NCBI RefSeq assembly: GCF_022524345.1
Contig: NZ_JAKWJU010000002.1
Coordinates: 4,998,501-5,062,500 of the forward strand
Direction of reading: 5' to 3'
DNA from: Streptomyces marispadix
GTDB lineage: Bacteria > Actinomycetota > Actinomycetes > Streptomycetales > Streptomycetaceae
Length of the DNA: 64,000 bases
Under the pieces are notes generated by a model. That model made no database searches. It was not told where the DNA came from and saw only the letters and a program-made list of their open reading frames with translations. A program made the translations under genes and the position numbers. Shown in pieces: positions 865-43,406 of this stretch. Each line of letters opens with the position of its first letter. Positions within the stretch are counted from its first letter, which is position 1.

Positions 865-2358
865 ATGGCCGATCTGACCAGACTGACCGCGGCCGAGACC
901 GCGGAGAGGATCGCGAGCGGCGACGTCACCGCCGTTGAGGTCGCCGAGGCGCATCTCGCCCGTATCGACGCCGTCGACGAGAAGGTGCACGCCTTCCTGC
1001 ACGTCGACCGCGAGGGCGCGCTCGCCAAGGCCCGCGAGGTCGACGAGAAGCGTGCACGCGGCGAGCGGCTCGGCCCGCTGGCCGGCGTGCCGGTCGCGGT
1101 GAAGGACCTGTTCACCACGGAGGGCGTGCCCACGACGGTGGGTTCGAAGATCCTGGAGGGCTGGATCCCGCCGTACGACGCGACGGTGGTGCGGAAGCTG
1201 AAGGAGGCGGACGTCGTCATCCTCGGCAAGACCAACATGGACGAGTTCGCCATGGGCTCCTCCACGGAGAACAGCGCGTACGGGCCGACCGGCAACCCCT
1301 GGGACCTCACCCGCATCCCGGGCGGCTCCGGAGGCGGCTCCTCCGCGGCGATCACCGCGTACGAGGCGCCGCTGGCGATCGGCACCGACACCGGTGGTTC
1401 CATCCGCCAGCCCGCCGCCGTCACCGGCACCGTGGGCGTGAAGCCGACCTACGGCGGTGTCTCCCGCTACGGCATGGTCGCCTTCTCCTCCTCCCTCGAC
1501 CAGGCCGGGCCCTGTGCCCGCACGGTGCTCGACGCCGCGCTGCTGCACTCCGTCATCGGCGGCCACGACGAGCTGGACTCGACCTCCATCGACCAGCCCG
1601 TGCCGGACGTCGTCGCCGCCGCGCGCAACGGCGAGGTGTCGGGCCTGCGGGTCGGCGTCGTCAAGGAGTTCCGCGGCGAGGGCTACCAGGCGGGCGTGCT
1701 CCAGCGCGTCGACGAGACGGTGGAGCTGCTGCGGGAGCTGGGCGCCGAGGTCGTCGAGGTCTCCTGCCCGTCGTTCACCAAGGCGCTGGCCGCGTACTAC
1801 CTGATCGCACCCTCGGAGTGCTCCTCCAACCTCGCCCGCTTCGACGCGATGCGCTACGGGCTGCGCGTGGGCGACGACGGCACGCACTCCGCGGAGGAGG
1901 TCACGGCGCTCACCCGTGAGGCCGGGTTCGGCGACGAGGTCAAGCGCCGCGTCATGCTCGGCACTTACGCACTCAGCTCCGGCTACTACGACGCGTACTA
2001 CGGCTCGGCGCAGAAGGTGCGCACGCTCATCACCCGCGACTTCGAGCGCGCCTTCGCGGAGGTGGACGTCCTCGTCTCGCCCACGACGCCGACCACCGCG
2101 TTCCCCATCGGCGAGCGCGCCGACGACCCCATGGCCATGTATCTGGCCGACCTGTGCACCATCCCGTCCAACCTGGCCGGGAACGCCGCCATGTCCGTAC
2201 CGTGCGGCCTGGCCGAGGAGGACGGCCTCCCGGTGGGGCTCCAGATCGTCGCTCCGGCCATGGCCGATGACCGTCTCTATCGTGTCGGTGCGGCCCTGGA
2301 AGCCGCCCACCAGGCACGTTGGGGACACCCGCTGCTCGAGGAGGCACCGTCGCTGTGA
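865..2358 (+). CDS. gatA: Asp-tRNA(Asn)/Glu-tRNA(Gln) amidotransferase subunit A
   Basis: GatA is the glutaminase that releases ammonia from glutamine for the amidation carried out on GatB. The 497-residue protein is an amidase-signature enzyme of normal length. The Ser-cisSer-Lys triad is visible: Lys80 in GVPVAVKDL, cis-Ser155 in the GGSGGGSS loop and nucleophile Ser179 in [11 protein letters not shown]. The spacing of 24 residues between the two serines is as in characterised GatA. A GGGGGAGG ribosome binding site precedes the ATG. The stop overlaps the GTG of the next small gene, suggesting coupled translation. Confidence 0.97.
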
Positions 2359-2600
2359 GTGGAAAGCTTCAGAAGGCCAAGGGGTTCAAGAAGTCCCGGA
2401 CCGGGATGTACGTGTCCATCGCCGCCTCCCTCTTCGGGGCCGTAGGCACCATCAAGCGCGGCAGGGAGGCCCGTCGCGAGGGCGACACGCTCCAGTTGCT
2501 CGACGTCGCGGTGTCGGCGGCGGGCATCGTCACCGGTGTGGCGCTGCTCGTACGGGAGCTGCGGCGGCTCGACATCGACGATGTCCTCGCGGACGACTGA
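2355..2600 (+). CDS. small membrane protein of unknown function inside the gat operon
   Basis: The 81-residue product begins with GTG inside the gatA stop (GTGA overlap) and ends 14 bases before gatB, so it is almost certainly co-transcribed with the amidotransferase genes and translationally coupled to gatA. It has a basic start ([16 protein letters not shown]), a weakly hydrophobic stretch at residues 19-31, a second clearly hydrophobic segment ([17 protein letters not shown]) and an acidic tail. I recall a similar small gene at this place in other Streptomyces, but no function. Whether it has anything to do with tRNA amidation cannot be told from the sequence. Confidence 0.8.
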
Positions 2601-2614
2601 GAGGCGAAGTATCC

Positions 2615-4123
2615 GTGACCGTCACTGAACTGGTGCCGTACGAGGACGCGTTGGCCGCCTACGACCCCGTCATGGGGCTGGAGGTCCACGTCGAACTCGG
2701 CACCGCCACGAAGATGTTCTGCGGCTGCTCGACGACGCTCGGCGCGGACGCCAACAGCCAGACCTGCCCGACCTGTCTGGGTCTGCCCGGCGCGCTGCCG
2801 GTCGTCAACGCGACGGGCGTCGAGTCCGCCGTACGCATCGGTCTCGCGCTGAACTGCGAGATCGCGGAGTGGTGCCGCTTCGCGCGGAAGAACTACTTCT
2901 ACCCGGACATGCCGAAGAACTTCCAGACCTCCCAGTACGACGAGCCGATCGCGTTCAACGGCTACCTCGACGTGCAGCTTGAGGACGGCGAGGTCTTCCG
3001 CGTGGAGATCGAGCGCGCCCACATGGAGGAGGACACCGGCAAGTCGACGCACATCGGCGGCGCCACGGGCCGCATCCACGGCGCCTCGCACTCGCTGCTC
3101 GACTACAACCGCGCCGGCATCCCGCTGATCGAGATCGTCACCAAGCCCATCGAGGGCGCGGGAGAGCGCGCACCCGAGGTCGCCAAGGCGTATGTGGCCG
3201 AACTGCGGGAGCTGATCAAGGCGTTGGGCGTCTCCGAGGCCCGCATGGAGATGGGCCAGATGCGCTGCGACGTCAACCTGTCGCTGCGCCCCAAGGGCGA
3301 GAGCGCCTTCGGCACACGCAGCGAGACGAAGAACGTCAACTCGCTGCGCAGCGTGGAGCGCGCGGCCCGGTTCGAGATCCAGCGGCACGCGGCGGTGCTG
3401 GACGCGGGCGAGAAGATCGTCCAGGAGACCCGGCACTTCCACGAGGACCAGGGCACGACGACCTCCGGCCGCGTCAAGGAGGAGGCGGAGGACTACCGCT
3501 ACTTCCCCGAGCCGGACCTGGTGCCGGTCGCACCGTCCCGCGAGTGGGTCGAGGAGCTGCGGGCGGGGCTGCCCGAGCTGCCGCGGCTGCGCCGCAACCG
3601 GCTGCGGGAGGAGTGGGGCATCTCGCAGCACGAGATGCAGTCCGTGCTCAACGCCGGTGCCGTGGGGCTGATCGTCGCCACCGTCGACGCGGGCGCGCCC
3701 GCCGACCAGGCCCGTAAGTGGTGGATGGGCGAACTCGCCCGCCGCGCCAACGAGTCGGGCACCGATCTGGCGGATCTGCCCATCGGTCCCGAGGACGTCG
3801 CCCGGGTCTGTGAGCTGGTGCAGGAGGGCTCGCTCAACGACAAGCTCGCGCGGCAGACCATCGAGGGCGTGCTGGCGGGCGAGGGCACACCGGACGAGGT
3901 CGTGGAGAAGCGCGGACTGAAGGTCGTCTCCGACGAGGGCGCGCTCGGCGCGGCCGTGGACGAGGCGATCGCGGGCAACGCCGACATCGCGGAGAAGATC
4001 CGCGGTGGCAAGGTGCAGGCCGCGGGCGCGCTCGTGGGCGCGGTCATGAAGGCCACCCGGGGGCAGGCGGACGCCGCCCGTGTGCGTGAGCTGATCCTGG
4101 AGAAGCTCGGCGTCGAGGGCTGA
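2615..4123 (+). CDS. gatB: Asp-tRNA(Asn)/Glu-tRNA(Gln) amidotransferase subunit B
   Basis: GatB binds the mischarged tRNA and activates its side-chain carboxylate with ATP before amidation. The 502-residue protein starts with GTG ([12 protein letters not shown]), which matches the start of Streptomyces GatB; the frame is open much further upstream but that part is a shadow of gatA. The N-terminal catalytic core is recognisable from [11 protein letters not shown], and CGC followed by CPTC form the zinc-binding cysteine cluster. The C-terminal YqeY-like tail domain (residues about 355-500) is present. It closes the operon and is followed by a strong hairpin. Confidence 0.97.
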
Positions 4124-19100: not shown

Positions 19101-20271
19101 CGGCAGTGAGTTCACGCTGCTCCATCAGCCGGTCGTGGAGCTGGCAGGGGGCAGGATCACGGCGGTGACGGCCCATCCGAGAAGGCGCTCGGCGCAGGGC
19201 GTTCTGTTCACTCCGGCCGAGTTCACACGCGCTGCCGGGGCCGGAGGCAGCGGGCCTGGCGAAAGCCGTGACCCTGGCAGCGGCCCCGCCGGCAGCCCGG
19301 GCAGAGGCGACGTCGACGGCAGAGGCCCACGCGGGGACACCCGTCGCCGTGGTTCGGGGGCTCACATCGGGGCGCCGCCCCTCCCGGCCCCACCGGCCGG
19401 GCCCGGCCACCGGCTGCTCGCGGAGGCCCTACGGCTGGCCGTGGCGCGGCAGAGCGCGGGCTTCCATGTGCCCGTCTCCGTACGGCTGCCTGCCGCGTCA
19501 CTCCTGGAGCCCGCACGTGGCGGCGGCACCGTGGAGGCCGTGGCGGTACGGCACCAACTGCCCCCCGGCTCCCTGATCTTGGAGATCACGGGCGCGGACA
19601 CCCGCGTCGCCCTGGAGGAGCTGGAGGCGCGACTGAGCGCGCTGCGCAGCCATGGCGTCCGTATCGCGCTCGACGGCTTCGGCAGCGGACCGCTGGCGGT
19701 GTCGGCGCTGCGGAGGCTTCCGGTGGACATCGTGAGGCTCGAACGCGTACTCGTCGAAGGCGTGGTGGACTCCGGAAGACTGCGCAAGATCACCAAGGGT
19801 CTGCTGCGCATCGGCGCCGACCTCGGTCTCACGTCGGTCGCCGAGGGCATCGATCTGCCCGAACAGGCCGCATTGCTACGCGAGTTGGGATGCACCCAGG
19901 GTCAGGGTGCGCTCTTCTCCGACCCCCTGGACGAACACCGCTTACGGCACGTGCTCTCCCGCGGGGTTCTCCCCGTGCCCGACGAACGCGCGCCCGCGTG
20001 TGGTCAGCCCGCGCGCGGGCGTCCGCAGGTCCCGGGCCCTTCGGGAGGACCGCCGGGCGGCTCGGCGGGCGGCAGAGCCGGGCACTCCCAGGGGAGCCGG
20101 GGCGGAGGCCGCTCGGTCGTGGTGGCGGGGGCCCTGCCCGTACGGTTGCAGGAGCGGCGCGAGAGCATGCAGCCCTGGCTCGTGTCCGGGGACTCACGGG
20201 AGCCTGTGGACCCCGTCACACGGCCGTCGCCCCCCTGCTCGCATGCTGAGACGGGCGTCCCACCCACTTGA
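16180..20271 (+). CDS. membrane PAS-GGDEF-EAL cyclic-di-GMP protein with degenerate EAL
   Basis: About 1363 residues. A disordered N-terminus (to about 180) precedes a block of some nine membrane helices (about 180-430), a PAS domain (NHFRSLVQGSSDVIMIASPTG, about 540-645), a GGDEF domain (about 660-835), a Ser/Thr/Arg-rich linker and an EAL domain (about 970-1260). The diguanylate cyclase site GGDEF at 742-746 and the inhibitory RxxD site (RAGD, 733-736) are intact. In the EAL domain the EAL triplet is replaced by VTA in RITAVTAHP, DDFGTG by DGFGSG, and the KID-type motif by RLE, so phosphodiesterase activity is doubtful. The start is uncertain: ATG 16180 lacks a good ribosome binding site. 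An orthologue next to ilvB occurs in other Streptomyces (cdgE in S. venezuelae, if I recall correctly). Confidence 0.88.
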   Translation: MDELPVDEAPYTTDMLPSAGPGPGPERGDVRVPVPRPRGPEVREASVPEEDPVMPGGAATRQGLVRTPAGAPAFAPPSTRAGSPTCAEVPPGGGQLRTSAAGGVPAPATASSASPVPAARAASVRERVHDGEFGAAGRRGPKDGSSAVAQAGVGDAAVTAGPGMGQPSARPEVRPVAQPVSVLPQLLLVVLCGGYAIGAAFGWGSRQLSLFMGDFGLSAAGVLAAASCVRYARMHRGTQLGPAWLLFGLSSLMAAAGNAVWGWYEVVLHQPVPRPSAADFCFLLFAPPAIIGLLVLAKRPVTRAGWVCLGLDSWLIGGSLLTLSWSLALVHTAYWEGDSVARAALALAYPLLDIVLVSMVLALHFRRAAAHRSAVNTAIGALALTVLCDALFTSPLLREHYTSGQLLDAGWFAGALLLAYAPWVKGEREAHRHTQGATGRGCGAVGVDGRVGGAMAPERDVLHGDDSPSRPIAGSLAALTPYLAAAVCTLGMLYNAVSGREIDRVVLFTTCTVVLALVVRQGIMLLDNISLTQELAQKENHFRSLVQGSSDVIMIASPTGMLRYVSPAAAGVYGRDGDALIGSELAALIHPEDLARVLHELRRFLATPPQQMPSTRIECRFRHGRGHWLNVESTVNRYRSGLIFNSRDVTERVRLQAQLQHNASHDPLTDLPNRALFTERVRKALVGRRGGDSEHAVLFIDLDGFKAVNDTIGHQGGDELLVAAARRLQESVRAGDTAARLGGDEFAVLILGDGNPSTHAAAERELRIHEIADRLRVTLSEPYRVEGREVRVAASIGIAFAEPGISPTSLMRNADLAMYRAKQAGKARVELYAPHMQEGTPAGTAGTVGAPGAADAKSTSGNAPRTPDENRQGTSQSASPEISRSTSRSTSQGTERSAATLPREAAPTAPVAAPGDRPAGRDDHERGDAVAAGPRSRAVGTGDARETARASGTAPVASHTGTAHTTGPAAAFQPGSEFTLLHQPVVELAGGRITAVTAHPRRRSAQGVLFTPAEFTRAAGAGGSGPGESRDPGSGPAGSPGRGDVDGRGPRGDTRRRGSGAHIGAPPLPAPPAGPGHRLLAEALRLAVARQSAGFHVPVSVRLPAASLLEPARGGGTVEAVAVRHQLPPGSLILEITGADTRVALEELEARLSALRSHGVRIALDGFGSGPLAVSALRRLPVDIVRLERVLVEGVVDSGRLRKITKGLLRIGADLGLTSVAEGIDLPEQAALLRELGCTQGQGALFSDPLDEHRLRHVLSRGVLPVPDERAPACGQPARGRPQVPGPSGGPPGGSAGGRAGHSQGSRGGGRSVVVAGALPVRLQERRESMQPWLVSGDSREPVDPVTRPSPPCSHAETGVPPT

Positions 20272-20304: not shown

Positions 20305-20346
20305 ATGCGCACCCGAATTCTCGTACTTGGTAAGCGCGTCGACTGA
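20305..20346 (+). CDS. ilvB leader peptide
   Basis: MRTRILVLGKRVD followed by TGA, with GGGGGAGGG eight bases upstream. The run Ile-Leu-Val-Leu and a later Val make it a branched-chain amino acid sensor: ribosomes would stall here when charged Ile, Leu or Val tRNA is short. The same leader is familiar upstream of ilvB in other Streptomyces. Confidence 0.85.
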   Translation: MRTRILVLGKRVD

Positions 20347-20385
20347 CCGGGTCCCCGTCAGGACCCGCGACCACAGCGACGCGCT
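20333..20385 (+). promoter_or_regulatory. pause/anti-terminator hairpin of the ilvB leader
   Basis: AGCGCGTCG (20333-20341, inside the last leader codons) pairs perfectly with CGACGCGCT (20377-20385). Nested inside, CGGGTCC (20348-20354) pairs with GGACCCG (20361-20367). A ribosome stalled on the Ile-Leu-Val codons would leave this structure altered and so affect the terminator that starts one base later. Confidence 0.65.
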
Positions 20386-20419
20386 CCCCTCGCCTGCCTC
20401 ACGGCACGGGGGGTTTTTT
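20386..20419 (+). terminator. rho-independent attenuator before ilvB
   Basis: CCCCTCG (20386-20392) pairs with CGGGGGG (20407-20413), and after a 2-base bulge TGCC pairs with GGCA around a TCAC loop. Six T residues follow at 20414-20419. A T-run terminator is rare in this G+C-rich DNA, which argues for a purposeful attenuator. Confidence 0.8.
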
Positions 20420-40290: not shown

Positions 40291-41394
40291 ATGACGACGC
40301 CTCGAATCGACTTCGACCTCAAGCCCTCCTCGCAGCCCCTGCCCGCCGCGGAGCGCGAGGCGGTGCTGGCGAACCCCGGCTTCGGCCGTCATTTCACGGA
40401 CCACATGGTCACGATCAAGTGGACCGAGGGCCGCGGATGGCACGACGCCCGGCTCCAGCCGTACGCGCCGCTCCAGCTCGATCCAGCCAACATGACGCTG
40501 CACTACGCACAGTCGATCTTCGAAGGGCTGAAGGCATACCGGCAGGCGGACGGCTCCGTCGCCGCCTTCCGGCCCGACGCCAACGCACGGCGCTTCCAGC
40601 GCAGCGCCCGCCGGCTCGCCATGCCGGAACTGCCCGTGGAGACGTTCATAGAGGCGTGCGAACTGCTCGTGCGCCAGGACAAGGAGTGGGTCCCGGGGAC
40701 GGGCGAGGAGTCGCTGTACCTGCGGCCCTTCATGTTCGCGACCGAGGTCGGCCTGGGCGTGCGGCCCGCCAACGAATACCTCTTCATGCTGATCGCCTCG
40801 CCCGCCGGCTCGTACTTCCCCGGCGGGGTCCGGCCCGTCTCCGTCTGGCTGTCCCAGGAGTACGTGCGTGCGGCGCCCGGCGGCACGGGCGAGGCCAAGT
40901 GCGCGGGCAACTACGCCGCTTCGCTCGTCGCACAGGCGGAGGCCGCCGAGCAGGGCTGCGACCAGGTCGTGTGGCTGGACGCGATCGAGCGCCGCTTCAT
41001 CGAGGAGATGGGCGGCATGAACCTCTACTTCGTCCACGGCTCGGGGAAGGACGCGAGGATCGTCACACCCTCGCTCACCGGCACGCTGCTGCCGGGCATC
41101 ACCCGGGACTCGCTGCTCACCCTCGCCGGCGACCTCGGCTACGCCACGGAGGAGACCAGGCTCACCGTCGACGACTGGCGGGACGGCAACGCCGACGGCA
41201 CCATCACCGAGGTCTTCGCCTGCGGGACGGCCGCCGTGATCACGCCCGTCGGCGAGGCCAAGTGCGCCACCGGCGCATGGAAGGTCGGCGACGGGCAGCC
41301 CGGCGAGATCAGCATGCGGCTGCGTGAGGCGCTGCTGGCGGTGCAGACGGGCCGCGCGGAGGACCGGCACGGCTGGATGCGGCCCCTGGCCTGA
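40291..41394 (+). CDS. ilvE: branched-chain amino acid aminotransferase
   Basis: Performs the last step of isoleucine, leucine and valine synthesis and the first step of their breakdown, transferring an amino group with glutamate. The 367-residue fold-type IV PLP enzyme has its PLP lysine in [15 protein letters not shown], the substrate-side [10 protein letters not shown] and the phosphate-binding [10 protein letters not shown]. The ATG at 40291 is preceded by GAAGGA at 11 bases; the upstream extension of the frame is non-coding. It is monocistronic, with a hairpin downstream. Confidence 0.96.
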
Positions 41395-41419
41395 CGTGCC
41401 CCTTCGGCATGAACGCCCG

Positions 41420-41460
41420 CGGGCGGTCCACGACGGGAAGCCCCCGCCGCGGACCGCCCG
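41420..41460 (+). terminator. hairpin terminator after ilvE
   Basis: CGGGCGGTCC (41420-41429) and GGACCGCCCG (41451-41460) are perfectly complementary, with a 21-base loop. Confidence 0.72.
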
Positions 41461-41527
41461 CCGCGTCCGCTTTCCGGATGGTGAGACACGTTGCGGACGC
41501 GGGGGCGGTATGTGCAAGACTCCCCCC

Positions 41528-41578
41528 GTGTCCTCGTTCGCCATGATTATCGGCAGCAGGCGCGCCGGTCCTCAGTGA
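41528..41578 (+). CDS. putative leader peptide of the citramalate synthase attenuator
   Basis: The frame reads VSSFAMIIGSRRAGPQ then TGA, with GTG at 41528 or ATG at 41543 as start. Two adjacent isoleucine codons (ATT ATC) are notable because the downstream enzyme leads to isoleucine. No ribosome binding site is visible; a TATGTG box at 41509-41514 could give a leaderless or nearly leaderless transcript. Inference rests on its position before the switchable hairpins and T-run terminator listed next. Confidence 0.5.
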   Translation: MSSFAMIIGSRRAGPQ

Positions 41579-41610
41579 CCGGCTGCCGCGGAAAGACCCG
41601 TGCGGCAGCC
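41551..41610 (+). promoter_or_regulatory. mutually exclusive hairpins of the citramalate synthase leader
   Basis: Form 1: GCCGGTC (41564-41570) with GACCGGC (41577-41583), extended by CGGCA (41551-41555) with TGCCG (41584-41588); it lies over the leader codons. Form 2: GGCTGCCGC (41581-41589) with GCGGCAGCC (41602-41610), perfect over 9 bases. They share 41581-41588, so only one can form at a time, as in amino acid attenuators. Confidence 0.6.
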
Positions 41611-41639
41611 GTCACCGTGTCCCAGACCCGCGCGCCAGA

Positions 41640-41666
41640 CCTCTCGCACCCGCGAGAGGTTTTTTT
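41640..41666 (+). terminator. rho-independent terminator upstream of citramalate synthase
   Basis: CCTCTCGC pairs with GCGAGAGG across a 4-base loop and is followed by seven T residues. It lies 129 bases before the ATG and after the ilvE terminator, so its job is most simply premature termination of the next gene's transcript. Confidence 0.82.
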
Positions 41667-41795
41667 GGTTTCCGGCCCACCCGCAGCCGGGAGCAGCGGG
41701 GCGAAGAGGAAGCAGAACGAGCGAGGCGGAGCCCGGCAATACGGATCTCCCTTCATCGCCCAGGAGCACAGCATCCACCAGGAGCCACAGCAGCC

Positions 41796-43406
41796 ATGAG
41801 CACGGACGCCCCGGCCGCCCCGGACGACAACTTCCACATCTTCGACACCACACTGCGCGACGGTGCCCAGCGCGAGGGCATCAACCTCACCGTCGCCGAC
41901 AAGCTGACGATCGCCCGCCATCTCGACGAGTTCGGCGTCGGCTTCATCGAGGGCGGCTGGCCGGGCGCCAACCCGCGCGACACCGAGTTCTTCGAGCGGG
42001 CCGGAAGGGAGATCGACTTCCGGCACGCACAGCTCGTCGCCTTCGGCTCCACCCGTAAGGCAGGCGTGGCCGCCGCCGACGATCCGCAGGTCAAGGCGCT
42101 GGTGGACTCCGGTGCCCCGGTCGTGACGGTCGTGGCGAAGTCGCACGACCGGCACGTCGAGCTGGCCCTGCGCACCTCCCTGGAAGAGAACCTGGAGATG
42201 GTGCGCGACACCGTCACACACCTGCGTGAGCAGGGCCGCCGGGTCTTCGTCGACTGCGAGCACTTCTTCGACGGCTATCTCGCCGACGCCGCCTACGCGA
42301 AGCAGGTCGTACGCGCCGCTCACGAGGCCGGCGCCGACGTCGTCGTGCTCTGCGACACCAACGGCGGGATGCTGCCCGCGCAGATCCAGGCCGTGGTGCG
42401 CACCGTCCTCGCCGACACCGGGGCCCGCCTCGGCATCCACGCTCAGGACGACACGGGCTGCGCCGTCGCCAACACCCTCGCCGCCGTCGACGCGGGCGCC
42501 ACCCACGTGCAGTGCACCGCCAACGGCTACGGCGAGCGCGTGGGCAACGCCAACCTCTTCCCGGTCACGGCCGCGCTCCAGATCAAGTACGGCAAGCAGG
42601 TGCTGCCCGAGGGCTCGCTGGAGGAGATGACGCGCATCTCCCACGCGATCGCCGAGGTCGTCAACCTCGTGCCCTCCACTCATGAGCCCTACGTCGGCAC
42701 CTCGGCGTTCGCGCACAAGGCCGGACTCCACGCGTCCGCGATCAAGGTCGACCCGGATCTGTACCAGCACATCGAGCCCGAACTCGTCGGCAACACCATG
42801 CGGATGCTCGTCTCCGACATGGCCGGACGTGCCTCCGTCGAGCTGAAGGGCAGGGAGCTCGGCTACGACCTGGAGGGCGACCGCGACCTCGTCGGGCGGA
42901 TCGTGGAGCGCGTGAAGGCCCAGGAGCTGAAGGGCTTCACCTACGAGGCGGCGGACGCCTCCTTCGAACTGCTGCTCCGCGACGAGGTCGACGGACGTCC
43001 CCGGCGCTTCTTCCGGCTGGAGTCCTGGCGCACGATCGTCGAGCAGCGCCCCGACGGCGACCAGGCAAACGAGGCCACGGTCAAGCTGTGGGCCAAGGGC
43101 GAGCGGATCATCGCCACCGGCGAGGGCAACGGACCGGTCAACGCCCTGGACAGGGCACTGCGCAGCGGGCTGGAACGGCTGCATCCGGAGCTGGCCAAGC
43201 TGTCCCTCGTCGACTACAAAGTCCGCATCCTGGAGGGCGGCCACGGCACGGACTCCACGACCAGGGTGCTGGTCTCCATGAGCGACGGGCGCGCGGAGTG
43301 GGCGACGGTCGGCGTGGCCGACAACATCATCTCCGCCTCGTGGCAGGCGCTGGACGACGCGTACACATACGGGCTGCTGCGGGCGGGCGTCGAACCGCAC
43401 GAGTAA
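41796..43406 (+). CDS. cimA: citramalate synthase (2-isopropylmalate synthase family)
   Basis: A 536-residue member of the isopropylmalate/homocitrate synthase family, of the CimA type that joins pyruvate and acetyl-CoA to citramalate for threonine-independent isoleucine synthesis. The barrel begins FDTTLRDGAQREGINL; the metal site is in HAQDDTGCAVANT and the CTANGYGERVGNANL segment is typical of CimA. The C-terminal regulatory domain, which in this family binds the end product, spans about 400-530. The CimA assignment over other family members is from motifs remembered, not tested. CAGGAG lies 12 bases before the ATG. Confidence 0.9.
   Translation: MSTDAPAAPDDNFHIFDTTLRDGAQREGINLTVADKLTIARHLDEFGVGFIEGGWPGANPRDTEFFERAGREIDFRHAQLVAFGSTRKAGVAAADDPQVKALVDSGAPVVTVVAKSHDRHVELALRTSLEENLEMVRDTVTHLREQGRRVFVDCEHFFDGYLADAAYAKQVVRAAHEAGADVVVLCDTNGGMLPAQIQAVVRTVLADTGARLGIHAQDDTGCAVANTLAAVDAGATHVQCTANGYGERVGNANLFPVTAALQIKYGKQVLPEGSLEEMTRISHAIAEVVNLVPSTHEPYVGTSAFAHKAGLHASAIKVDPDLYQHIEPELVGNTMRMLVSDMAGRASVELKGRELGYDLEGDRDLVGRIVERVKAQELKGFTYEAADASFELLLRDEVDGRPRRFFRLESWRTIVEQRPDGDQANEATVKLWAKGERIIATGEGNGPVNALDRALRSGLERLHPELAKLSLVDYKVRILEGGHGTDSTTRVLVSMSDGRAEWATVGVADNIISASWQALDDAYTYGLLRAGVEPHE

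Follow-up and report, generated by a model that had tools for sequence, protein, structure and literature searches.

The stretch of DNA analysed here (the window, 64,000 nucleotides of Streptomyces marispadix) places a region with a very short reading frame and several potential hairpins between the end of ilvE, near 41394, and cimA, the gene for citramalate synthase at 41796-43406, the order being that read in the window. The question raised by this locus is whether the region controls the gene behind it and, if so, what is sensed and by what structural step transcription would be stopped or allowed to continue. As argued below, there is a strong likelihood that 41528-41667 is an isoleucine-coded, widely conserved and ribosome-controlled attenuator before cimA, and the leader, lying ahead of the gene whose product begins isoleucine synthesis in Streptomyces and in most of the related bacteria examined, is very probably a switch letting cimA be copied only when isoleucine is short. 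This answer is based on computation, with the frame, its Ile codons, the compensatory changes in two helices (called P1 and the terminator here), the geometry under an assumed ribosomal reach and the linkage to cimA in many families all established in this way. How P1 stops the terminator is the least certain step.

As the preliminary description of the locus had supposed, the downstream gene encodes citramalate synthase, with the product scoring 618 bits against the equivalog model TIGR00977, for which the cut-off is 450. Its homologue in S. coelicolor presumably bears the gene name SCO5529. In front of it, a scan for terminators over 41300-41900 gave a sole one on the forward strand, at 41637-41662, with a stem of 11 pairs and seven T residues at 41660-41666, and one weak match on the opposite strand. 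The covariance model that we call R1, built from cimA leaders only, matches 41546-41667 with an E value of 1.8e-14, while Rfam, its T-box and other families included, gave no match at the gathering score anywhere in the 64-kb window. The features are collected in Table 1.

Table 1. Features of the cimA leader region and of the sister leader before ilvB, in positions of the window.
Feature	Position	Strand	Detail
Sister leader before ilvB, MRTRILVLGKRVD then stop	20305..20419	+	P1 20333-20341 / 20377-20385, T run 20414-20419
Upstream motif CGGATGGTGAGAC, ~40 nt before leader start, possible regulator site	41475..41487	+	
-10-like element AAGACT, 6 nt before GTG	41516..41521	+	NANNNT conservation
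Leader ORF VSSFAMIIGSRRAGPQ, GTG start, probably leaderless	41528..41578	+	stop TGA 41576-41578
Sensor codons ATT ATC (Ile Ile)	41546..41551	+	
P1 5' arm GGCGCGCCGGTC, one C-C mismatch in helix	41559..41570	+	pairs with 41625-41636 (fold)
Inner helix of P1 rod (9-bp hairpin of the preliminary description)	41580..41610	+	41580-41589 with 41600-41610 (fold)
P1 3' arm GACCCGCGCGCC, ends 0 nt before terminator	41625..41636	+	fold
Intrinsic terminator	41637..41666	+	stem 41637-41647 / 41652-41662, T run 41660-41666
cimA, citramalate synthase, 536 aa	41796..43406	+	TIGR00977 equivalog match

Consider firstly the close relatives. We compared 81 loci of the Streptomyces type, namely the window's own copy and the best 80 of a larger number of matches in a CimA protein scan, all from Streptomyces or close allies and with two distant paralogues of 33-35% identity (L002 and L003) excluded; 38 of the 81 make up the set A2. 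The leader is present in all 81, and a DNA search for it matched 36 of 36 genomes of the same genus, with the own genome not counted. The start codon is GTG in 80 loci and ATG in one. The distance from the start to the Ile codons, taken to the codon preceding the first of them, is 15 nt in 80 loci and 12 nt in one, so that the sole length difference in this part amounts to one whole codon. The first Ile codon is ATT in all 81 loci and never ATC, whose constancy could reflect a constraint on nucleotides rather than on the codon. At the second position ATT occurs in 52 loci, ATC in 22, ATG in six and ACC in one, giving Ile in 74 of the 81. Behind the Ile codons, by contrast, the frame is altered in 10 of the 81 loci and in one further locus (L006) stops directly after MIIG, and the whole frame is 51 nt long in 70 loci, 57 nt in 10 and 27 nt in one. 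Since the frame is kept up to the Ile codons and not behind them, the frame appears to matter as far as these codons and the letters of the RNA to matter after them.

It is also noted that in 78 of the 81 loci the start codon is preceded, at a distance of exactly 6 nt, by a hexamer of the form NANNNT, with CAGACT being present in 47 loci. A simple sigma-70 scan of the region found no promoter, and the assignment of the -10-like element is based on conservation across the 81 loci, in which the spacing of the hexamer suggests a leaderless transcript at the cimA leader. Further upstream the pattern CG[CGT]ATnnTGAGA[CT] is present in 76 of the 81 loci, lying 56-57 nt from GATTA in 74 of those. The motif CGSATNNTGAGAC is met in the window both at 41475-41487 before cimA and at 20240-20252 before ilvB, and its exact form CGCATNNTGAGAC occurs three times genome-wide, one of them before ilvB, with no occurrence of the reversed control. 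Judged from its sequence and positions, it is possibly a regulator site shared by cimA and ilvB.

We then turn to the hairpins. All of the pieces that were described before are in the sequence, i.e., the frame VSSFAMIIGSRRAGPQ, the pairing CGGCAG...CTGCCG over the leader codons, the pairing CGGCTGCCG...CGGCAGCCG at about 41580-41610 and the terminator stem, and the reading of the region as an Ile-coded leader followed by a terminator has held, with both parts present before cimA in all of the 81 Streptomyces-type loci and detected in 16 of the 22 families sampled besides. The switching proposed with these pieces, by contrast, does not survive the comparison. The hairpin over the leader codons, taken to be a competitor, is kept in only 7 of the 81 loci and is rejected in that role. 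The 9-bp hairpin does exist, but it is not the working helix, being merely the inner part of a long rod that folding predicts to consist of P1 and this inner helix, with the terminator directly after it; the letters of the inner helix differ between relatives, its covariation having been judged by eye. In addition, no base is common to the second hairpin (41580-41610) and the terminator (41637-41662), and freeing this hairpin, as had been supposed, cannot avert termination through pairing. Of the three hairpins described before, the terminator is thus the only one left in a functional role. As for P1 itself, GCGCGCCGGTC of its 5' arm and GACCCGCGCGC of its 3' arm are exact in all 81 loci, because of which its pairing had to be tested outside the Streptomyces-type loci.

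For that purpose we used 80 regions upstream of cimA from 22 families outside the genus, hand-picked for spread among the matches listed; a cimA match at E <= 1e-100 is present in 236 of 296 genomes drawn from the class. A fixed rule was applied, demanding a terminator, a helix with 7 or more net pairs whose end lies 0-6 nt upstream of the terminator, and a short frame with at least two Ile codons close before the helix. The rule fired in 53 of the 80 regions, in 16 of the 22 families, and in none of 80 reverse complements, 79 stretches further upstream and 800 dinucleotide shuffles, so that the arrangement is more than chance. With the condition on the frame dropped, the terminator and abutting helix were found in 59 of 80 regions versus 1 of 80, 3 of 79 and 50 of 800 in the same controls. 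The strict rule missed 10 leaders that are visible by eye (L172-L175, L187, L199, L210, L213, L216 and L217), some of which have one Ile codon beside Thr codons; leaders added by eye enter no count. No leader was seen by eye in the other 17 of the 80 regions (L168, L170, L194, L198, L200-L202, L204-L209, L221 and L223-L225), which belong mainly to the families f20 and f27.

In the 53 detected leaders the dimensions are narrowly held. The gap from P1 to the terminator, counted from the outermost G-C pair, is 0-4 nt, within the 6 nt that the rule permitted, and P1 begins 7-12 nt behind the start of the last Ile codon, the distance being 8 nt in 32 leaders. The P1 loops have 3-18 nt, of which those of 19 leaders have 3-5 nt. 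The leaders contain 66 ATT and 56 ATC codons, and Ile makes up 125 of their 499 residues, the rule itself having demanded two Ile codons. A hexamer of the form seen in Streptomyces lies 6-8 nt before an in-frame start in 44 of the 53, with a control value of 0.096 at random positions, the count being biased upward because the start was chosen to favour the hexamer.

The compensatory changes were examined in the set A1, consisting of 40 of the 53 leaders from 15 families. In P1 and the terminator 94.2% of the 773 cells are paired, dropping to 38-54% when the structures are slid. Of the 20 pairs 13 change on both sides in some sequence, giving 68 double-change cells versus 17.1 in shuffled sequences; by four of five measures of covariation none of 500 shuffles was as high, and by the remaining one, which counts the pair types, 50 of 500 were. 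RNAalifold alone arrives at the same two helices, and in P1 the four opening pairs, GCGC, are invariant. The comparison with relatives that the preliminary description had proposed has thus come out in its favour as regards the Ile codons, conserved in relatives, and the compensatory changes, which fall in the P1 and terminator stems.

Evidence of another kind comes from leaders before other genes. In the window, R1 finds the cimA leader and then, with an E value of 8.6e-8, a leader before ilvB, the next match having an E value of 0.42. Among the class genomes 228 of 296 have R1 matches at E <= 0.1, and 58 of 149 phylum genomes, some of them members of the class, have matches at E <= 0.01, leaders of ilvB and other genes being included in both counts. 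In all of the 104 genomes that have both an R1 and a cimA row among the matches listed, the R1 match is found 15-202 nt upstream of cimA, a tally that takes one R1 row per genome, leaves out a second row of G152 and includes the genomes on which R1 was trained. The tandem layout was also found in 40 of 50 regions upstream of ilvB by a rule looser than the fixed cimA rule and with no shuffled control, where the helix was oddly placed in two (L277 and L380) and some of the 10 misses ended short of the leader (e.g., L252).

The genes behind 45 R1 loci, 40 of which were fetched from other classes or as not known to precede cimA and five of which came directly from the phylum-wide matches, were compared by tblastn and gave 14 CimA, 16 IlvB, 3 LeuB, 2 LeuA and 2 LeuS (one leuS, of L337, falling below the full-length cut-off as the gene is cut), i.e., 37 branched-chain genes, and eight with none. 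The codons of the leaders differ with the gene: cimA leaders carry Ile, ilvB leaders combine Ile, Leu and Val (e.g., LVLI), and those of leuA and leuS carry Leu, with the leuA leaders reading MSQNLLLT and MQIHIVVEELLLR, each followed by a stop codon. The three leuB leaders have Val and Ile codons but lack Leu codons. The citramalate route to isoleucine makes use of LeuB as well, so that these codons need not contradict sensing, yet there is no match of codon to gene name. That the codons mostly change with the gene on one and the same fold is the best indirect evidence for codon sensing.

Some of the R1 loci deserve separate mention. Two of them, L342 and L344 (family f21, genus g69), have additional Ile-run leaders of the same build, and the genes behind them gave no match to CimA, IlvB, LeuA, LeuB, LeuS, IlvC, IlvE or SerA. 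At L317 a leader VLLIT, then a stop, precedes a long frame resembling prephenate dehydratase, and at L332, in another class, the match lies before a gene for an aminotransferase of class V, the leader there lacking branched-chain codons in the vicinity of P1. L328 is truncated at a contig end, and the weak rows L349-L351, with E values of 0.0009-0.006, look like chance.

Now we consider how the leader may work. If the ribosome is assumed to reach 12 nt beyond the start of the A-site codon, the 5' arm of P1 in the 53 leaders is covered to a median of 0% (at most 15%) when the ribosome stands on the first Ile codon and to a median of 100% (at least 67%) when it stands on the stop codon. The distance from the stop to the terminator is at least 21 nt in all 53, with the ribosome on the stop falling short of the terminator. 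Because the ribosome masks the 5' arm of P1 at the stop and not at Ile, P1 is the ribosome-gated part, and the physiology then demands that P1 favours read-through. Based on this geometry, the expression of cimA would be matched to the supply of charged tRNA-Ile in the following way, in which the start of transcription, the translation, the stalling and the sign of the response are steps that we infer. The transcript would start at or near the GTG and be translated at once. When isoleucine is ample, the ribosome would pass the Ile codons onto the 5' arm of P1 and block P1, the terminator would fold and transcription would end at about 41666. With charged tRNA-Ile scarce, the ribosome would wait on ATT ATC with its front edge just short of P1, P1 would form and RNA polymerase would read into cimA.

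The remaining step is how P1 acts on the terminator. With the ribosome stalled on Ile and the 3' arm of the terminator still unmade, the 5' arm of the terminator is paired in folding to 0.05 in the other families (median of the 52 of the 53 leaders that were scored, maximum 0.34) and likewise to 0.05 in the Streptomyces-type loci (median of 81, maximum 0.07). By the same calculation E. coli thrL, trpL, leuL and hisL give 0.72-1.0, although the hisL control separates the states poorly, its arm being also sequestered (0.78) with the ribosome at the stop. Thus, with the 5' arm free in the stalled state, a shared-base antiterminator is rejected, folding having found none in the 52 and 81 cimA leaders where the four E. 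coli controls were positive. In the full RNA the terminator still forms beside P1 in folding (median 0.99 of 81), so that the blocking step rests on geometry. Given the constant gap of 0-4 nt and a GCGC foot that does not vary, we propose that P1 interferes with the final stage of terminator closure. Ending so close before the terminator, P1 would sterically keep the lower part of the terminator stem from closing within the polymerase. To this blocking by abutment, a model derived from folding and spacing, we give about even chances of being right. The LEU pseudoknot was also considered as a model and rejected; as published, it belongs to leuA and has its base stem at the Shine-Dalgarno box.

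By contrast, the leader may be a classical attenuator of the trp type, in which an antiterminator on a terminator strand, for example pairing of the P1 loop with the right side of the terminator, was missed. This is the usual design, and pairing of the P1 loop to the terminator is the antiterminator proposed for the nearest published motif, ilvB-II of Corynebacterium (PMC10272879), which also consists of P1 and a terminator; by eye, leader GGTC could moreover pair with terminator GACC in Streptomyces. If this explanation is true, the terminator 5' arm would be expected to be sequestered during stalling as in the E. coli leaders, which is inconsistent with its being left free in the cimA leaders, and in 19 of the 53 leaders a P1 loop of 3-5 nt has no bases to offer to the right side of the terminator, so that those leaders cannot form the published pairing. 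We therefore regard the trp-type explanation as unlikely.

The possibility that the region gives a small RNA or a constitutive terminator, with the Ile codons being incidental, is less probable still. The near-invariance of GATTAT as letters in the 81 loci would fit it, and P1 with the terminator alone would give a stable RNA of about 140 nt, but then the frame would not be kept up to the Ile codons and not after, both ATT and ATC would not be used in the 53 leaders of other families, Ile would not make up a quarter of their residues (even allowing for the two Ile codons that the rule demanded), and the codons would not differ between genes on the same fold. Least credible of all is the control of cimA by a metabolite riboswitch or a T-box. 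Structure in the leader of a biosynthetic gene is what such an element would present; the window, however, has no Rfam family at the gathering score, the P1 loops of the 53 leaders range from 3 to 18 nt with no common pocket seen, and the frame and the ribosome spacing would stay unexplained. It should also be noted that, against the ribosome-controlled attenuator itself, there are only two Ile codons, with Met or Thr replacing the second in 7 of the 81 loci. The constancy of the first codon as ATT, the 17 of 80 regions in which no leader was seen by eye, and the leaders whose codons do not fit the gene behind them count against it as well.

It is useful to compare the cimA leader with the known systems. 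With the E. coli trp, thr, leu and his leaders it shares the end-product codons, the terminator before the gene and the decision by ribosome position, and a frame rich in product codons with an intrinsic terminator between it and the gene is indeed present. It differs from them in that the ribosome-gated helix merely abuts the terminator rather than yielding, in folding, an antiterminator that shares the terminator strand, and in that the start is probably leaderless. With the actinobacterial ilvB attenuators (PMC10272879 and PMC13236596) it has in common a short frame with regulatory codons, and with ilvB-II also P1 followed by the terminator; codons, P1 and an adjacent terminator, with a gap of 0 in the window, are the ilvB-type tandem-hairpin layout, and the finding of the window's ilvB leader by a model built from cimA leaders points to kinship. 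The differences are the gene, cimA, and the runs of Ile rather than Ile, Leu and Val. As judged by folding, the cimA leader is of the ilvB-type build and is set apart from the classical kind by the lack of the shared-strand antiterminator.

The experimental data published for such leaders point in two directions. In reporter experiments on the ilvB1 attenuator of M. tuberculosis, changing the LVVI codons to AAAA led to the loss of induction (PMC13236596). In S. coelicolor ilvB, on the other hand, changed regulatory codons reportedly had no effect (cited in PMC1262725), and this counts against simple codon sensing because the sister leader before ilvB in the window has the same layout. The RNA-seq reannotation of S. 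lividans (PMC8079986) lists eight attenuators, alaL, ilvL, thrL, trpL1, trpL2, leuL1, leuL2 and metL, of which ilvL (MRTRILVLGKRVG) is nearly identical to the window's ilvB leader peptide; these and the actinobacterial attenuators of Seliverstov 2005 (PMC1262725) resemble the cimA leader in having short leader peptides, several of them leaderless. The cimA leader is absent from that table of eight, which speaks against the attenuator. In the main texts, cimA and citramalate are absent from PMC1262725, citramalate from PMC8079986 and from the 2024 survey of 50 genomes (PMC11109978), and citramalate and isoleucine from the study of transcript ends in S. griseus (PMC8914203). A literature search that covered few subscription papers found, among the entries listed and as judged by titles and openings of abstracts, no paper on a leader or attenuator of cimA, in agreement with the preliminary description, which knew of none, and no abutting hairpins in leader-peptide attenuators as judged from the entries listed.

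If the attenuator is real, the committed step of the threonine-independent route to isoleucine would have its own isoleucine sensor, in Streptomyces and in most of the families sampled beyond the genus (16 of 22), which is relevant to antibiotic producers drawing on branched-chain precursors. Taking the kin leaders together, we tentatively suggest, with somewhat less than even confidence, that there is one modular chassis for branched-chain genes across several classes, where P1 blocks the terminator by abutment and the GCGC clamp resists closure, and, under the same reservation, that its principle, blocking by an abutting helix with no shared base, is one not used in textbook attenuators. The old puzzle of actinobacterial ilv leaders that switch without an evident antiterminator would then become directly testable through the spacing of P1 and the terminator.

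Finally, we note some minor observations. In family f11 (L172-L175) the leaders end in one Ile codon and then a Thr codon in four of four cases (e.g., CITT before the stop), and, as read from these codons, threonine, a precursor of isoleucine by the other route, may also be sensed there. In family f20 (L204-L207, L223 and L225) there is no attenuator, and another conserved block, GGTGAACC or GGCGAACC...GTCGCGCG...CCGG...GCGTG, lies upstream of cimA, perhaps a different leader. In two Streptomyces genomes, genes at 2126-2818 (+) of L119 and 1199-1903 (-) of L121 encode proteins of 231-235 aa that by eye resemble the C-terminal regulatory part of CimA with an ACT-like part, and these genes have an Ile leader of their own (in L119 it reads MLHRLIIS...) together with a terminator of the same type. 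At 1576-1905 (-) of L118 a gene of 110 aa, ACT-like by eye, stands behind a near copy of the cimA terminator, with no leader frame recognised upstream of it. Between the terminator and the start of cimA, at 41670-41795, there are further pieces conserved among relatives, a CCGGT...CCGG repeat in many of them and AGGAGCC or AGGAGTC before the start.
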